Source: an uncultured Verrucomicrobiota bacterium
GTDB lineage: Bacteria; Verrucomicrobiota; Verrucomicrobiia; Opitutales; Opitutaceae
Direction: 5' to 3'
Assembly (NCBI GenBank): GCA_913058185.1
Contig: CAJXQX010000035.1
Span: 1 to 38,189, forward strand
DNA length: 38,189 nt
Position numbers and translations under genes: made by a program. Positions within the stretch are counted from its first letter, which is position 1; every line of letters begins with the position of its first letter. Below are positions 11,226 to 23,145 of this stretch, piece after piece. The notes beneath the pieces were generated by a model. The model was not told where the DNA came from, made no database searches, and saw only the letters and a program-made list of their open reading frames with translations.

Positions 11226-14213
11226 ATGAAGAAATCCCGCCGAGTATTATGGATTGGGGCGATCCTTGGAGCGGGTATCGGAGGATTGGTATTGCTGTTG
11301 GCTCTGCCTCGAGTTCAGACCGCCATCGCGCGTCGGGTGCTGACCAATCAACTGAATCTGCAGGCTTCATTGGCTGAGGTGCATATTGGGCTGAACTCGA
11401 TCGAAGTTACGAATTTCACCCTCGTCGATGGCCCCCTCAAAATACGTATTCCATCCTTGCTTGCTGATGTGCCGATTTGGCGACTGTGGCAGACCGCCCC
11501 CCACATTGCCCGCTTGGAGGCGAAGGGGTGGGATTTGCAATGGGATGGTTTAAACCCGGCCGCCGAATCTGCCGATTTACCCACCCCGGTGTCGACCGCG
11601 GGTTGGACTGCAATCTTTGCTGCAATCGAAACGGAGGATGCGCCTCCTCAAGATGTGTTGGGACAAATATCGCAGATGCTCGCGATGACTTTGCCTGTTT
11701 CAGTGGGCCAGGTTGACTTGGCTGGTAATGCGGTTTGGCGAGATGCTGGACCCGGTGCCGATGGTCAGGCGTCCGTTTCGATAATGGGCACGGGCCCTGC
11801 GCCAAATCGATTGAGTGACCTTCGTATCACGATCTCAGCCTTGGGAGAATCGGCGGGCGAGCAGCACATCCAGTCTCTCGCTATTGAATCCAACGTGAAG
11901 TCGAAGTTTGGGCCGAGTGGCCGAATGCGATCGGCGGAAACCACCACATCACTTCGGGCTAGTCGCCAGGGGAGAGATGTTGAAGATGTCTATGGATTGA
12001 GCGTGAGCGTCGATCAGCGAGAGGGTTCACCTCGGCTTCAATTCTCGCTGAGCGAAGGCGCGGAAGAACTATTTTCGGCGCATTTGGCTGCTGATTCGGC
12101 GGGAGTGATCATGGAAGGAGGTTGGGGTGTAAAACTCAGCGATGTTTCGCTGCGCAATTTGATGCTCGGTCGTGATCTGCCGGAGTTTAATTTAGTTGGG
12201 ACAGGTGCATTACGCGCCACCGCACAACTCGATGAAGTAAATTTGTCGGGGGATTTACGTTTTGAAGTCGTCGACGTGTCACAGTTGACCGAAGTCATGG
12301 CGGGGGTGGGTGATATCTCAGGGAATTTGGGTTTTGAAATTCGCCAAAACGGAGGCGATACCCGCTTCACTCGCATGGACCTGGAGGTTGCTGGTGCCGC
12401 ACCCGTATTGGAAGCGCGTTTACTCCAAGGTATTGAAATTGGGGCGAAGCGAGATGAGTTGCGCGTGGCGCGACCTGATGAACCCGTCATCTCGTGTCGT
12501 TTGCTGGGACTTCCCCTGTCTTGGATTCAACCGGCGATTGAACCTTGGGTGATTGATGCCCGACCCATTGAAGGACAAATCGTCGGGCTCGTCACCGCTC
12601 AGGGACTACGTTTCGTAACCAGTAATCCCATTCGGATCGAAGGCGCGGCCGTCGCCAATCAAGGTGAGTCCTATGTCGACGAGGTGGATATCGAAATCGA
12701 CCTCGGTAGTGAGATCACGACGGAAGGGTGGCAGGTAGAACTCGGGCGAGTGGAGATTTTTGGGCCGAAGGGCCGCTTGGTGAATTTCCAAGCGCGGGGA
12801 GGCCGCCTCAAGCGAGACGACGATATCATGAAGTTGGTGGGGCGCATCGATGCCGATCTGGCGGGGATGAGTGTTTGGCCAGGGTTGAGTCATTTGAGTG
12901 GATTACGTAGCGGCCAGTTACATGCGGAGTTTGGGGTCGGGGTCGAAGAGCGCCTCTCGATTGCCACCGCGGTATCAATTACGGATCTCGTTTCCTTGGC
13001 TGGACAGTCGTTACCAAACGTCGATCTCGATGGACGCGTTGATCTGCGGCCGGACAACAGCTTGGAGCTGCACTTGCCGGTCCAAATTACCGCAGATGGT
13101 CGTGCGTCGGATCTCACCTTCAATCTTCGCGCCGAACCGGAAGAGGCGGAATGGATGCTGGAAGGTAGCCTTTCGGGCCCTCGAATCTATTTACAGGACT
13201 TACAAACGCTCAGTGCGCTCATGGGCGATACCGAGCCGGTCCTCGAGGTGGCCGGAGATGATCGGAGTCAGCCCGGGTTATCGCCGGTTCAATCCAACGC
13301 GAATCGTCCGGTGTGGGCGGGATTACGGGGTTCAATTCAAACGGCCTTGGGCGAAATCGTGCTGGAAGACAGTCCAAGTCTATCGCGGCTCGAGGCAGAT
13401 ATCGTGATCGAACCCACTGCGCTTCGCCTGGATGGGTTTTCCCTCGCGGTGGGAGAAGCGGGAAGTGTGCGCGCCGATGCATCGCTTCAATTCGATGCTT
13501 CTCATGCTCGACCCTATCGAGGCATGGCCGGAATCTCTGCCAGCGACGTCGCGGTCGAACCCTGGTTGCGCTGGATCGAGCCTGATTCCACTCCGGTCAT
13601 GGAAGGAAACGTGAATCTCACTGCGAGTTGGCAGGCCGAGATGCGCGATCTCTCCGAGTTGGCCAATGGCGGGCAAATCAAAGCCGAAGTCTCGAGCACG
13701 GGTGGGGTGTTGAGAGCATTGGGGGTAGATGTCGAAAGCTATGTGCAAACAGGGCAAACCGTGGCGGCTTTGGGCGCGCTGTTCGGAGCACTCACTAATA
13801 ATCCCAAATTGGCTGAACAGGCGCAACGCGTGCAAGCAGCCACCAACGTAGCCGAACGCTTGTCCTTGGTGACTTTTGATCAATTGAGCCTGAACATCGA
13901 ACGGGGAGTGACGGGCGACGTGGTCATCAGTGATCTTTCGTTGATCGCACCGGCGCTACGTTTGATCGGGGAGGGTCGGATAACCTACCGGGACAGCCTC
14001 GCCTTTTGGCTTCAACCGCTGGCGCTCAAATTGAATTTGTCAGCCCGCGATGATCTGGGTCTTGCATTGCTAAACTTAGGCCTCGTGAAGTCTCAAGCGG
14101 ATGCATTGGGGTATTTACCTTTGGTCACCGATTTCAATCTCGATGGTTCTTTGGCCAATATTGGCACCGCAGAACTACAAAGACTTTTGGTTCGAGCGTT
14201 TTCCGGACAATAG
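11226..14213 (+). CDS. Large AsmA-like (AsmA/DUF748/TamB-type) envelope protein
   Basis: The 995-residue protein has one N-terminal transmembrane helix (VLWIGAILGAGIGGLVLLLA) and then a long periplasmic beta-rich region of short repeating strands. An AsmA-like start (NQLNLQASLAEVHIGLNSIE, FTLVDGPLKIRIPSLLADVP) is followed by repeated segments of the form L-x-G-x-hydrophobic. The C-terminus (ERGVTGDVVISDLSLIAPAL, RLIGEGRITYRDSLAFWLQP) resembles the AsmA_2 domain. This group forms beta-groove bridges thought to move phospholipids between the membranes. The gene follows the efflux operon by 51 bases without an obvious terminator, so read-through is possible, but a functional link is not shown. 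The family call rests on architecture and C-terminal motifs; subfamily is uncertain. Confidence 0.7.
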   Translation: MKKSRRVLWIGAILGAGIGGLVLLLALPRVQTAIARRVLTNQLNLQASLAEVHIGLNSIEVTNFTLVDGPLKIRIPSLLADVPIWRLWQTAPHIARLEAKGWDLQWDGLNPAAESADLPTPVSTAGWTAIFAAIETEDAPPQDVLGQISQMLAMTLPVSVGQVDLAGNAVWRDAGPGADGQASVSIMGTGPAPNRLSDLRITISALGESAGEQHIQSLAIESNVKSKFGPSGRMRSAETTTSLRASRQGRDVEDVYGLSVSVDQREGSPRLQFSLSEGAEELFSAHLAADSAGVIMEGGWGVKLSDVSLRNLMLGRDLPEFNLVGTGALRATAQLDEVNLSGDLRFEVVDVSQLTEVMAGVGDISGNLGFEIRQNGGDTRFTRMDLEVAGAAPVLEARLLQGIEIGAKRDELRVARPDEPVISCRLLGLPLSWIQPAIEPWVIDARPIEGQIVGLVTAQGLRFVTSNPIRIEGAAVANQGESYVDEVDIEIDLGSEITTEGWQVELGRVEIFGPKGRLVNFQARGGRLKRDDDIMKLVGRIDADLAGMSVWPGLSHLSGLRSGQLHAEFGVGVEERLSIATAVSITDLVSLAGQSLPNVDLDGRVDLRPDNSLELHLPVQITADGRASDLTFNLRAEPEEAEWMLEGSLSGPRIYLQDLQTLSALMGDTEPVLEVAGDDRSQPGLSPVQSNANRPVWAGLRGSIQTALGEIVLEDSPSLSRLEADIVIEPTALRLDGFSLAVGEAGSVRADASLQFDASHARPYRGMAGISASDVAVEPWLRWIEPDSTPVMEGNVNLTASWQAEMRDLSELANGGQIKAEVSSTGGVLRALGVDVESYVQTGQTVAALGALFGALTNNPKLAEQAQRVQAATNVAERLSLVTFDQLSLNIERGVTGDVVISDLSLIAPALRLIGEGRITYRDSLAFWLQPLALKLNLSARDDLGLALLNLGLVKSQADALGYLPLVTDFNLDGSLANIGTAELQRLLVRAFSGQ

Positions 14214-14308: not shown

Positions 14309-17300
14309 ATGTTACACGCCCGAACTCTCCTCATCCTATTGCTGGTCGCACCGGCTTGGTCATTTGCCCAGTCCTACTATTCCAACACCTTTGAATCCGA
14401 TGCTGTCGGTGCAAAACCGGCAGGAGACTTCACTTATTCGCCGAGTGCCAATTCCTCGACCAATGGATTTACCGTAGTTGATAGCAGCTCATCTCCCGCG
14501 AATCCCTTAGGCACCCGGTCGTTCTATTTATTCGACCGCAGCAACGGTGATCCGACGCATTGGCGCGGTCCGTTTTCCGAAGACGTCAACGTTTCCAACG
14601 TGAGGGTAGATTTCGATTTTAGGCGTGGATTCCTCCCGGTGGATGCAGCCGATACCGACACCCGATTCCATTTTGCGGTAGGTCGTGCGGGGAATACTTT
14701 GAATAATTCAGATTTTCGTCCGTTTGAAATCCGTCTCGTGAATAACGGGGACCTCATCGTGAACTCGGTGACAGGGTCGAGCTCCGCCGGAACGCACCTG
14801 ACCGAAGCAGTCAATCATCTCACCGTCCTGGCCAATTCGCATGACACTTTGGCCGTGGCCTATACCGATGCGACGTTGGGCTCAGGTAGTCTCGCCGCGA
14901 ATACGTTAAAGGTGTTCCTCAATAATGTGGATCTCGGCACCTTCACCTTTCATCAGACGCCGGATCCGGCCAATGCACCGCAGGTGAATTTCTACGCGCA
15001 AAACGACGACTTGGGGCAGTTTGCCTTTTACCAGGATACCAGTCGGCAGGGAGAGCTCCTCATCGACAACCTCTCGATTGTCAGTCTCACCGAAGTTCCC
15101 ACGACGATCGTGGCGCCTACGACGTTGACGGCGGTCGCTTCGGGTCCCGCCCAGATTGACCTGACTTGGCAGGACAATGCGGACAACGAACTCTCTTATG
15201 TGATCGAACGTCATAGCGGTTCGGGCACATTTGTAGCGGTTGCTGAACAGGCCGCGAACGCCACCGCCTACTCGGATAAATCGGTATCGGACAACTCGAC
15301 CTACACCTACCAAGTGCGGGCGAAAGCCGGGGCGGTTTCTTCCGAACCCAGCAATTCGGTGATGGTCACGACTCCCGTCCAGGTCTTGCCGTTGATCACT
15401 AGTGTCACGGCTCCTCTCACCGTCGCTGCCGGAGAGACGGCCCAAGTGACGATTTCTGCGCTGGGTCAGGCACCTCTGACTTATCAGTGGTATCAAGGTG
15501 CGTCAGGCGACGTTAGCGCCCCCATCAGTGGCGCCACTGCCGCGATGCTCAGCCTGCCGAATTTGGCCGCTGGTATCTCCGTTTGGGGACGAGTCAGCAA
15601 CGCTTCTGGTATTGATGACACGGATACGAAATCGATTGATGTCAGAATTCCAGGATCCGTGGTTGTGCAAACTGCGGCGGAGTTGGATGCGGCCCTCGCG
15701 TCTACCGGACCGGGTGATGTGATCCTGCTCGCCAACGGCACCTGGGATGATGCGGTCATCCGTCTCTCGGGCGTAGGAACGGCGGCTAGTCCGATAACGG
15801 TTGGAGCCGTGACCCCAGGGAAGGTCATCCTGACGGGCAATTCGCGCGCCCAGATCGGCGGCAGTTACACCGTCCTCCGCGATCTGATCTTCACCGGCAC
15901 CTACACGGGAAACGCTCACGAGATCATTCAATTTCGCAACGGCAGCGCGGGACCGGCCAACAACGCACGAGTCACCAATGTTAGCATCATTGATTATATT
16001 CCCGTCAATGGGGCAGACACGGACTGGGTTGCGTTCTTCGGAACGAACAACCGATTAGATAATTCCTTCCTGAGTGGCCATGATGTGATCGGAGTTACCG
16101 TCGTGGTCGATGTAGGCGGAGAACCCAACAATCACCTGATCGATCACAACCATTTCGCCGACCGAATCAACGGTGGGGCCAACGGGTGGGAGACCATTCG
16201 CGTTGGAGTCAGTTCCGCTTCAATGCAGGACTCCCTAACCGTGGTGGAGCACAATCTCTTCACTCGAATCGATGGGGAAATCGAAATCATCTCCAATAAG
16301 TCCGGTGGTAATATTTATCGCTACAATACGTTCCTCGATTGTTCCGGCACCTTGACCCTGCGTCATGGCAATGGCTGCCGAGTGGATTCGAATCTCTTTC
16401 TCGGACGTTCGCGCGAAGGTAGCGGTGGCGTTCGTATCATCGGTGAGGATCACGTCGTGGTGAACAACCATTTCGAAGACACCCGCGGCCGTGACGGTGC
16501 CGCGATCACGGTTTATACCGGAGCCGATGATGGCCCGCTCAACGAGTATTTTGCCGCTCACCGCGCTTACATCGCTCACAATACATTTGTGAATGTCACG
16601 GGTCTGGCGATCGACATTGGCACGGGACTCGGTTCGCGTGACCGCACGATTCTACCGACTGGTGTGGTCGTCACCAACAACGTGATGACCCGCAGCACCA
16701 CCAACCCGGGTGGATTCGTGAATGAGCAAACGGGAGCGACCGCAACTTGGACCAATAACCTATATAACAATGGCGCGATCGGATTGTCCTCCCCTACCGG
16801 ATTCTCCGAGGCCGACCCATTGATGCGCTTCGATCCGATTCGGATTTATAGTGTGCCGACCACGACCAGCCCGGTGGTGGGCGCAGCGGTAGCCGGCACG
16901 GTTAGTATTCCGTTGGACTTGGACGGCAGCACCCGGGACAGCTCTCCCGATTTAGGCGCCATTGAAGTTTCCGGATTGGCCACGGCACTCGCTGTCGCCA
17001 TGGCGACCACGGCGAATACCGGGCCGGCCTACCTCAATTCCAATCGGACGGTCGGCACCCCCGATGCAAGTCTGGTCAACAGTTCGGTGCGCGCTGTTTC
17101 AGGTAACGGCGATGCCATCCTGATCAACGGTTTTGTCGTGGGTGGTTCTGATCTCAAATCTATCTTGGTTCGAACCGTGGGTCCGGGACTAACCGCTTTT
17201 GGTGTTTCCGATGTTATGGCTCAACCCGCCGTGACCGTTTTTGACCGCAATAACAATGAAATCGCGGCGAATTCCGGTTGGGAAAATGGCGACGCCACAT

Positions 17301-17875
17301 CCATTATCAGCACGTCTGCTCTGGTCGGAGCGTTCCCTCTCGTCGCTGGATCAGCCGACTCGGCCGTGATCGCCACAGTGGCGCCGGGGCCCTACACCGC
17401 ACAGGTCTCGCCGGTCGACGGGCAGGGCGGCTCGATTCTCGTTGAGGTCTACGATGCGACCCCCGGTAGTGGATTTTTACTCAACCAGTCTGCTCGAGGC
17501 GAAATCACCGCGAATCAGACCGTATTGATCGCTGGATTTGTCGTGAGTGGGACCGCATCTCGTCGGGCTTTGATTCGATGTGTTGGACCCGAATTAGCGA
17601 ACTTCGGCGTCACGGCTGCCCTCGGCGATCCCGAGTTGAAGGTGTTTAATTCAGCCGCGACGGAAATTTCGGCTAACGACAACTGGTCGAGTAACGCTAA
17701 TGCGGCGACGATCGTGCAGGCTTCGTCCGATTTAGGGGCCTTTCCGCTCACTGCCGGATCCAATGATGCCGCGGTATTGATTGAGCTTTCGCCCGGTGCC
17801 TACACCGTGCATGCTCGGGGCAATGACGGCACGGTCGGCACGGTTTTACTCGAGGTGTATTTCCTGACTAATTAG
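14309..17875 (+). CDS. Secreted multidomain PL6 polysaccharide lyase with two C-terminal beta-repeats
   Basis: The 1188-residue protein has a signal peptide (LLILLLVAPAWSFA, cleavage near residue 21), a LamG/concanavalin-like region (to about 255), an FnIII domain (about 268-355), an Ig-like domain (about 360-447), a chondroitinase-B/alginate-lyase right-handed beta-helix (about 449-890) and two copies of a 130-residue repeat (about 925-1050 and 1057-1188). The PL6 catalytic pair is K664 (in SNKSGGN) and R685 (in LRHGNG), 21 residues apart exactly as K250/R271 of chondroitinase B. E657 and E659, plus N625 in NGWETIRVG, match its calcium ligands. It should cleave alginate or a glycosaminoglycan-like uronate polymer by beta-elimination; the substrate cannot be told. 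The terminal repeats may aid sorting or surface attachment. Confidence 0.88.
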   Translation: MLHARTLLILLLVAPAWSFAQSYYSNTFESDAVGAKPAGDFTYSPSANSSTNGFTVVDSSSSPANPLGTRSFYLFDRSNGDPTHWRGPFSEDVNVSNVRVDFDFRRGFLPVDAADTDTRFHFAVGRAGNTLNNSDFRPFEIRLVNNGDLIVNSVTGSSSAGTHLTEAVNHLTVLANSHDTLAVAYTDATLGSGSLAANTLKVFLNNVDLGTFTFHQTPDPANAPQVNFYAQNDDLGQFAFYQDTSRQGELLIDNLSIVSLTEVPTTIVAPTTLTAVASGPAQIDLTWQDNADNELSYVIERHSGSGTFVAVAEQAANATAYSDKSVSDNSTYTYQVRAKAGAVSSEPSNSVMVTTPVQVLPLITSVTAPLTVAAGETAQVTISALGQAPLTYQWYQGASGDVSAPISGATAAMLSLPNLAAGISVWGRVSNASGIDDTDTKSIDVRIPGSVVVQTAAELDAALASTGPGDVILLANGTWDDAVIRLSGVGTAASPITVGAVTPGKVILTGNSRAQIGGSYTVLRDLIFTGTYTGNAHEIIQFRNGSAGPANNARVTNVSIIDYIPVNGADTDWVAFFGTNNRLDNSFLSGHDVIGVTVVVDVGGEPNNHLIDHNHFADRINGGANGWETIRVGVSSASMQDSLTVVEHNLFTRIDGEIEIISNKSGGNIYRYNTFLDCSGTLTLRHGNGCRVDSNLFLGRSREGSGGVRIIGEDHVVVNNHFEDTRGRDGAAITVYTGADDGPLNEYFAAHRAYIAHNTFVNVTGLAIDIGTGLGSRDRTILPTGVVVTNNVMTRSTTNPGGFVNEQTGATATWTNNLYNNGAIGLSSPTGFSEADPLMRFDPIRIYSVPTTTSPVVGAAVAGTVSIPLDLDGSTRDSSPDLGAIEVSGLATALAVAMATTANTGPAYLNSNRTVGTPDASLVNSSVRAVSGNGDAILINGFVVGGSDLKSILVRTVGPGLTAFGVSDVMAQPAVTVFDRNNNEIAANSGWENGDATSIISTSALVGAFPLVAGSADSAVIATVAPGPYTAQVSPVDGQGGSILVEVYDATPGSGFLLNQSARGEITANQTVLIAGFVVSGTASRRALIRCVGPELANFGVTAALGDPELKVFNSAATEISANDNWSSNANAATIVQASSDLGAFPLTAGSNDAAVLIELSPGAYTVHARGNDGTVGTVLLEVYFLTN

Positions 17876-21761: not shown

Positions 21762-22907
21762 CTAGTTCTTCAATTTGTAGAGCTCGACCAAAGCTTGGCC
21801 GGTGGTGTCGCCAACTCCGGATACGAGCACGGTATAAACACCTGGTTCGAGGGTGAGAATAGCGGCGGCGTCTTTGCTGTCTTCTTCAAGCGCGAATGCT
21901 CCAGCCCCGTTTGAGGCAGCCACGAGTTCGTCGCGACGAGGGAAGAGTTTCCAATCGTTATTACTGCCCACCGTCTCGCCGTCGCGGAGGACACTAAATT
22001 GAGGATCTGCGAGAACATTGGTGACGCCGTAGGTAGTGAGGGTAGGACCCACCGCTCGAATAAGAACCCGCAGTAGCGCGTCGCCCGCGATCACCACGCC
22101 CGGGACCAACACGTCGTCGCCTGAACCGACGACAGCACGAGAAGATATATTAGTAAGCTGAGCCGAACTTTGCCCCTCGGTCGCGTCGTAGAGTTCGAGT
22201 AGCGCAATGCCGGACTCACCTTGTTTTTCTTCAAGGCGAGCGGTGTAAACTCCGGGTGCATACTCCCGCAACGCAGCGGTGTCCAAACTTCCACTGTTCA
22301 AAGGAAACGCCCCAATACGTTGGGCAGCAACGGAAAGGTTCACCGGATCGCTGGTTTCACCCCAATTATCGTAAGATTCTAGAAAATCTTGGTTGAACGA
22401 GAGCCTGAGGGTGGGGTCACTGATGGTGCCGGCCAAATTGAACGGAGCTCCCGCCAGGGTGGGGGCAACCGCGCGAAGGAGTAGGGGCAACTTACCGGTT
22501 CCTTCGACCACAAATCCCGTCACGAGTTCGCCGCCCCCGGCGATAGATTTTGCTCGGGTAGAAAGGTTGGAGAAACGAGAGATGGGTAGAACCGATAACT
22601 CAAAGGGCTCGTAGTCGATGTCCATAAACGATTGCGATAGGGTGATCGACCAGTCGGTTCGATTTTGCTCCCGCAGGTGTTTCAACGTGGTGTTGTAGAG
22701 ATCGATATCCCCGGCGTGTAGCCATTCGGAATCCGTCTCCCATGAGCTGGATGTTTCGCTATTATAATTCGCGGACTGGGGGTCTTGCGCAATCAGACCG
22801 GTTGCGCAGGAAACCAGAAAACCTAGAACGAGAAACGTCCAGCCAACGGGTCGACCGCACGGATGAATGTTCCGCGCGAGCGTGTTATTTGCAGGACGTG
22901 CAACCAC
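21762..22907 (-). CDS. Secreted protein built of two verrucomicrobial-type beta-repeats
   Basis: The protein is not assigned to a named family. The open frame runs up to a GTG at 22926-22928 (388 residues). I prefer GTG at 22905-22907 (381 residues) because GGTGGAG lies 9 bases upstream and it leaves a shorter lead to the signal segment (WTFLVLGFLVSCATGLIAQD). After a Ser/Asn-rich linker there are two copies of a 130-residue unit (at 121-248 and 260-388 in 388-residue numbering). Each has LLRAVAPTL- or LIRAVGPTL-type strands, a GAFxL...GSxDxAA segment, PGVYT and a final LxELY. The same unit occurs twice at the C-terminus of the PL6 lyase at 14309-17875. The gene overlaps or abuts the DUF4266-like gene upstream, so the two are probably cotranscribed. 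Function unknown; probably exported. Confidence 0.75.
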   Translation of the reverse strand: MVARPANNTLARNIHPCGRPVGWTFLVLGFLVSCATGLIAQDPQSANYNSETSSSWETDSEWLHAGDIDLYNTTLKHLREQNRTDWSITLSQSFMDIDYEPFELSVLPISRFSNLSTRAKSIAGGGELVTGFVVEGTGKLPLLLRAVAPTLAGAPFNLAGTISDPTLRLSFNQDFLESYDNWGETSDPVNLSVAAQRIGAFPLNSGSLDTAALREYAPGVYTARLEEKQGESGIALLELYDATEGQSSAQLTNISSRAVVGSGDDVLVPGVVIAGDALLRVLIRAVGPTLTTYGVTNVLADPQFSVLRDGETVGSNNDWKLFPRRDELVAASNGAGAFALEEDSKDAAAILTLEPGVYTVLVSGVGDTTGQALVELYKLKN

Positions 22908-22911
22908 TGGA

Positions 22912-23145
22912 TTATACTCCACCTGCACCAGCGGTGCTAGGTTCTATGCGAGCGTGAATACCGGATGAATAATCGAACACGGCCGAGTCGGGAAAAGTCA
23001 TATTCGACTTTGAAACCAGGCGTTGTTCGGAGAGGTTCACGGAACCACATGCGGTGCATAGCACGGCGATACTAGAGACAGCAAATAGCCGGCCGTATCG
23101 CGGGGAGAAACGGGATCGTTCGGGAGGCGAGACTGGGGCAATCAT
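22912..23145 (-). CDS. DUF4266-like small lipoprotein with premature stop
   Basis: The 77-residue product has a basic N-region, a hydrophobic stretch and a lipobox ending in AVLCTAC, then a short mature part (SEQRLVSKSNMTFPDSAVFD, IHARIEPSTAGAGGV) that resembles DUF4266 lipoproteins. In the same frame, directly past the TAA at 22912-22914, come eight codons reading SSGCTSCK and then TAA at 22885-22887. As I recall the family, its members end in a Gly-rich, Cys-containing tail like this, so a CAA-to-TAA change (or an assembly error) seems to have removed it. Members often sit with thioredoxin-like and DUF3570 genes; here the only neighbour is a beta-repeat protein. Family assignment is from memory of the motif pattern. 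Confidence 0.55.
   Translation of the reverse strand: MIAPVSPPERSRFSPRYGRLFAVSSIAVLCTACGSVNLSEQRLVSKSNMTFPDSAVFDYSSGIHARIEPSTAGAGGV

Follow-up and report, generated by a model that had tools for sequence, protein, structure and literature searches.

A conserved CxxC tail behind an in-frame stop codon: a probable recent nonsense mutation in a partial lipoprotein locus of an uncultured Opitutaceae bacterium

In a stretch of 38,189 nucleotides from an uncultured Verrucomicrobiota bacterium (Opitutaceae; contig CAJXQX010000035.1 of assembly GCA_913058185.1), referred to here as the window, a gene coding for a small lipoprotein of 77 amino acids (positions 22912-23145, minus strand) ends at an in-frame TAA (22914-22912), directly behind which the codons of a conserved tail with two cysteines have been kept. 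We consider it probable that this stop arose recently, by nonsense mutation, in a displaced and incomplete relic copy of a gene set formed by a lipoprotein ending in CxxC, a predicted beta-barrel protein and a TlpA-like protein, and that this copy is in an early phase of decay.

The lipoprotein ends with GAGGV, and the eight codons that follow the TAA in the same frame (22911-22888) read SSGCTSCK. They are closed by a second TAA (22887-22885) at the position where the family normally stops, so that tail and stop together occupy 22885-22911 on the minus strand and the reading frame is intact up to the family stop. Unless the first stop is read through, the C-terminal CxxC is absent from the translated product. 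A GGTGGAG sequence (22923-22917) and three GTG codons in frame with the next open reading frame (22928, 22922 and 22907) flank the lipoprotein stop. The initial annotation, which drew attention to this site, had already described both the stop ahead of SSGCTSCK and these flanking elements, and every coordinate holds. The feature is real and its essentials had been correctly read; only the family was misfiled.

That the stop removes a cysteine-containing tail typical of the family, as had been claimed, is borne out by the orthologues. When the lipoprotein was searched against 57 related genomes with an X at the stop position (matches above E 0.01 being left unused), relatives were found whose alignment covers the tail up to its final residue, among them a further copy on contig C62 of the window genome. 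Against a family profile of 77 rows from which the window row was left out, the truncated form scores 59.2 bits, which places its body in the CxxC-tailed family, and the read-through form 79.4 bits, a gain of 20 bits with the tail. Additionally, among the 2271 stop codons in the six frames of the window, the codons behind this one match the family tail with 23.1 bits, while the next best stop reaches 6.7.

Genome searches with a full-length profile (an alignment of 11 rows) gave the same picture at two taxonomic scales. Among 252 family-level genomes, 29 gave matches, 36 in all; once the one place that is a true DUF4266 gene is left out, the 34 places other than the window that extend to the end of the profile are all stop-free and the window alone has a stop. 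The 372 order-level genomes, a set that overlaps the former, yielded matches in 31 genomes at 38 places and again 34 of 34 stop-free places other than the window, leaving out three whose match falls short of the profile end (the DUF4266 gene, G330:C1 and one in G295). G330:C1 and G295 may be either chance matches or relatives lacking the tail. In the pooled set of distinct family sequences, from which identical sequences and profile matches below 20 bits were dropped, C-x-x-C plus one residue ends 79 of 79 rows, the window row only if read through, although this count is biased, as 51 loci come from a scan of named genomes with a pattern that required the tail. The counts from the 252 and 372 genomes are less biased because they used the full-length profile.

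At the column of the stop, 58 of the 79 rows carry Gln, as do all three other members of the clade to which the window copy belongs, in agreement with the earlier guess that a Gln codon had been changed. The TAA is most likely a nonsense mutation of recent origin. A further peculiarity of the window row is an E-P/S/T-G motif in which the Gly is missing in this row only (1 of 79).

The identity first proposed for the protein, a DUF4266-like lipoprotein, could not be maintained. Membership by the Pfam model was rejected, since neither the truncated form nor the form read through with an X gave a match to PF14086 at E≤1. Among the 11 aligned family rows, PF14086 matched one (E 0.0066) and DUF6587 matched three (best E 0.0006), and at E≤1 neither the window lipoprotein nor the barrel matched anything in NCBIfam, a G001 relative giving only weak matches. 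The family, as judged from its sequences, is therefore unnamed in Pfam and NCBIfam and consists of small Verrucomicrobiota lipoproteins ending in CxxC; in the literature searched (titles and abstract openings, most subscription journals lying outside the coverage), it is undescribed.

There are, nonetheless, similarities between both systems. DUF4266 proteins and members of the CxxC family are small lipoproteins, some 53-55 residues long when mature, that carry a pair of cysteines at the C-terminus, and both are adjoined by genes for thioredoxin-like and other extracytosolic partners. According to Méheust et al. 2021 (PMC8238504), the C-terminal CXC of DUF4266 may undergo redox cycling, and its gene clusters hold DUF3570, ApbE and a thioredoxin-like protein. 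A true DUF4266 gene with such neighbours (ApbE, a TlpA-like protein and DUF3570) is present in the window genome on contig C10, and matches the CxxC family profile weakly (E 2.4e-4). A comparison of the two profiles gave a probability of 95.6% at full length, signal peptides included, but the mature parts alone gave 5.2% and a score of 15.7, close to the best of 50 shuffles (15.6; reversed profile, 10.0), a borderline result on which the two families may be remote kin.

By contrast, the C-terminal motif is CxxC followed by R, K or Q in the family and CGCN in DUF4266, where it ends the 19 proteins extracted, an extraction that accepted only CGC-type ends and gave none at one of 20 loci. The family thus has CxxC in place of the CXC of DUF4266, and no Pfam match. 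Two barrel partners of the CxxC family that were scanned had no match to DUF3570, and an ApbE search with one query found none in ten family regions nor in a set of 19 regions, two of the 19 being without a family lipoprotein. DUF3570 and ApbE do not adjoin the window gene; this genome has them on C10.

The intact loci show the company this lipoprotein usually keeps. A barrel match follows the lipoprotein on the same strand in 48 of 51 named loci, two of these being cut by a contig end (L118, L156) and two partial (L150, L152); of the three others, L126 and L136 end soon after the lipoprotein and L127 has about 3 kb without a barrel. TlpA-like matches lie on the lipoprotein strand in 47 of the 51, and two partners taken from intact loci gave matches to the TlpA/AhpC-TSA thioredoxin-like families PF00578 and PF08534. 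The barrel (24 sequences) was modelled with a mean pLDDT of 89.4, mostly as strands, and, among the 50 structural matches listed, shares with FadL and OmpG an outer-membrane beta-barrel fold (TM-scores by query length 0.28-0.51, 7-14% identity), a likeness generic to barrels that does not make it a member of either family. In three loci, TlpA-like and barrel matches share one open reading frame (L120 844-2706, L129 1740-3704 and L140 6174-7826). In another (L090 / L152, G224:C186), the barrel gene behind a stop-free CxxC lipoprotein breaks off after some 110 residues, beside a long open reading frame that, by eye, looks like a TonB-dependent receptor.

Within the genus of the window, a reductase/ferredoxin protein also precedes the lipoprotein (C62, G001, G002 and G005), although such a match occurs in only two of the 51 named loci. 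On C62, it is a 757-residue protein directly upstream of the lipoprotein (L023 13284-15557), YpdA/thioredoxin reductase-like joined to a NapH-like ferredoxin, likenesses that in NCBIfam lie below the curated cut-offs. From these sequence likenesses, we infer that the intact set may pass electrons to the outer membrane by way of thiols.

In the window, little of this set is left. A search of the 38 kb detected no TlpA-like protein, usual at intact loci, and no reductase fusion, and of the barrel gene there is an N-terminal stub only. The stub (22602-22742, minus strand, delimited by tblastn and alignment) corresponds to the first strands of the family barrel, the rest being missing, and lies within the downstream open reading frame, listed with 388 amino acids (21762-22928, minus strand), which may well begin at GTG 22907 instead. 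After a signal-peptide-like N-terminus, about 47 residues align to the barrel's first strands and then continue in frame into a repeated domain, the reading frame being open across the join. When the stub was searched against six loci, picked for closeness from the 51 that are named or related, five matched (E 7e-8, 3.6e-7, 1.2e-5, 0.001 and 0.010, one locus each), with L106 as the best match and none in L128.

The domain to which the stub is joined, of the SRFSNLSTR...RAVGPTL type, recurs in many copies, both in this genome and in related ones (for instance, at about 17060-17872 and 21765-22586 of the window and at 9521-14582 of L024), where it adjoins these redox loci or is fused into them, and a Pfam scan of one protein that carries it gave no match for it.

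Compared with the neighbourhood in G005, the segment 21750-23464 has no counterpart at the same site: 1.7 kb in the window stand against about 50 bp in G005 between the oxidase and CBM9 matches, with flanks that are 89% (oxidase), 90% (SMC) and 72% (CBM9) identical. The segment is likewise absent from G006 and G007, where about 95 and 120 bp, respectively, separate the oxidase and SMC matches. G001 has a different open reading frame between oxidase and SMC matches about 1.2 kb apart, while three genomes are uninformative on the site (G002 and G003, where the 1.5-kb flank showed no SMC, and G004, with a distant oxidase only). Since none of G005, G006 and G007 has the segment here, it is most simply read, on this comparison, as an insertion rather than as the result of repeated losses. 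The oxidase neighbour gene of G007 (L172, G007:C26:4980-6467) has an in-frame TGA of its own.

A recent duplication of the C62 copy was considered as the source of the segment and rejected, as the tree sets both copies in separate clades: the window copy falls beside G057, L120 and L129 (support 99/91), and C62 in the clade of the genus, with G005, G001 and G002. The tree was built on 78 rows, the partial copy L114 having been dropped from it and from the profiles, and rests on 73 columns, which are few by the tree tool's own warning. This placement suggests transfer or an old second lineage. The window branch, with a length of 1.26, is long compared with those of its clade mates (0.15, 0.23 and 0.35).

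In comparison with G005, about 1.65 kb are missing at the C62 locus, most of the barrel and one TlpA gene being gone, so that the barrel breaks off near codon 136 and runs into a repeated-domain gene that is read in a different frame (L023, G000:C62, ~11335-13262, compared with L026, G005:C138). A search for full barrels found them in G001, G002 and G005, but in the window genome only a fragment at C62 (residues 3-128 of 359), the short stub of the window going unreported. Although the assembly is rated 99% complete, no intact barrel of the CxxC family was found in this genome by a query that is 43-47% identical to its full matches, so that a divergent copy could escape it. Four other genomes of the same genus (G003, G004, G006 and G007) had neither a lipoprotein nor a barrel match; absence of the family is nothing exceptional in the genus, which weighs against the reading favoured here.

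Despite this disruption, the lipoprotein gene does not look like an old pseudogene, an explanation that was rejected because, in the comparison with its three nearest relatives, dN (0.19-0.26) is far below dS (1.6-3.9, saturated). Among the three clade mates themselves, dN is 0.10-0.16. As dN is far below dS, the gene must have been constrained through most of its history, and the data fit a relaxation of this constraint in recent times only. The same values would also suit an error, readthrough or a shortened form that still functions. Many bacterial genes with in-frame stops and low dN/dS have been argued not to be pseudogenes (PMC7918605).

The reading we favour, that of a displaced relic lately struck by a nonsense mutation, would involve the following steps. 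In an intact set, thiol-disulfide electrons would pass from thioredoxin to the lipoprotein CxxC at the outer membrane. In the window genome, a partial copy sits where three relatives lack the segment; its barrel gene would have been cut and the remnant joined to a different gene, and the CxxC tail would have been lost through a nonsense mutation of recent date. The product would be a lipoprotein probably unable to carry out the redox step, and the locus a relic. Observed are the stop, the tail kept in relatives, the barrel stub, the lack of the segment from this site in three relatives and the failure to find an intact barrel in the genome, whereas the redox role, an insertion in place of repeated losses, the recency of the stop and the loss of function are, in this scheme, what we infer.

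Other explanations also have to be weighed. The shortened lipoprotein could be functional, its CxxC-less form working with the chimeric secreted protein encoded downstream, and the stop favouring coupled translation. The low dN, the downstream frame left open across the join and the location of the stop between GGTGGAG and GTG 22907 would agree with this, but we judge it unlikely, as in each genome search the 34 other places that cover the profile to its end are all stop-free, all 79 rows have the CxxC (in a set biased to tail-bearing rows) and coding has been kept past the stop. Alternatively, the stop may be a sequencing, consensus or assembly error in a gene that is truly full length. The assembly is a draft of 159 contigs with 2.06% contamination, in which the deletions or the stop base could be such errors, and both the wholly kept tail and the low dN relative to dS would be expected of an undamaged gene. 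However, a single substitution is an unlikely type of consensus error, the neighbourhood has been independently disrupted and another near-universal residue has also changed, and we therefore regard an error as improbable.

It is very unlikely that a redox lipoprotein is turning into a form without the cysteine pair, its stop being fixed and the protein maintained by selection to work with a chimeric secreted partner made of the barrel's export signal and the repeated domain. Finally, readthrough at some rate, yielding some full-length protein, seems barely plausible: the tail is kept in frame to the family stop and prokaryotic readthrough has been suggested to be common, but the codon is TAA, whereas the same paper calls TGA leaky and TGA or TAG recoded, and considers many such events short-lived (PMC7918605).

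Although the stop itself would be an ordinary loss, it points to an uncharacterised gene set of Verrucomicrobiota, formed by a CxxC-tailed lipoprotein, a barrel and a TlpA-like protein, that resembles the DUF4266/DUF3570 flavin system and yet is distinct from it. In the genome studied here, this set appears to be disintegrating at two loci.
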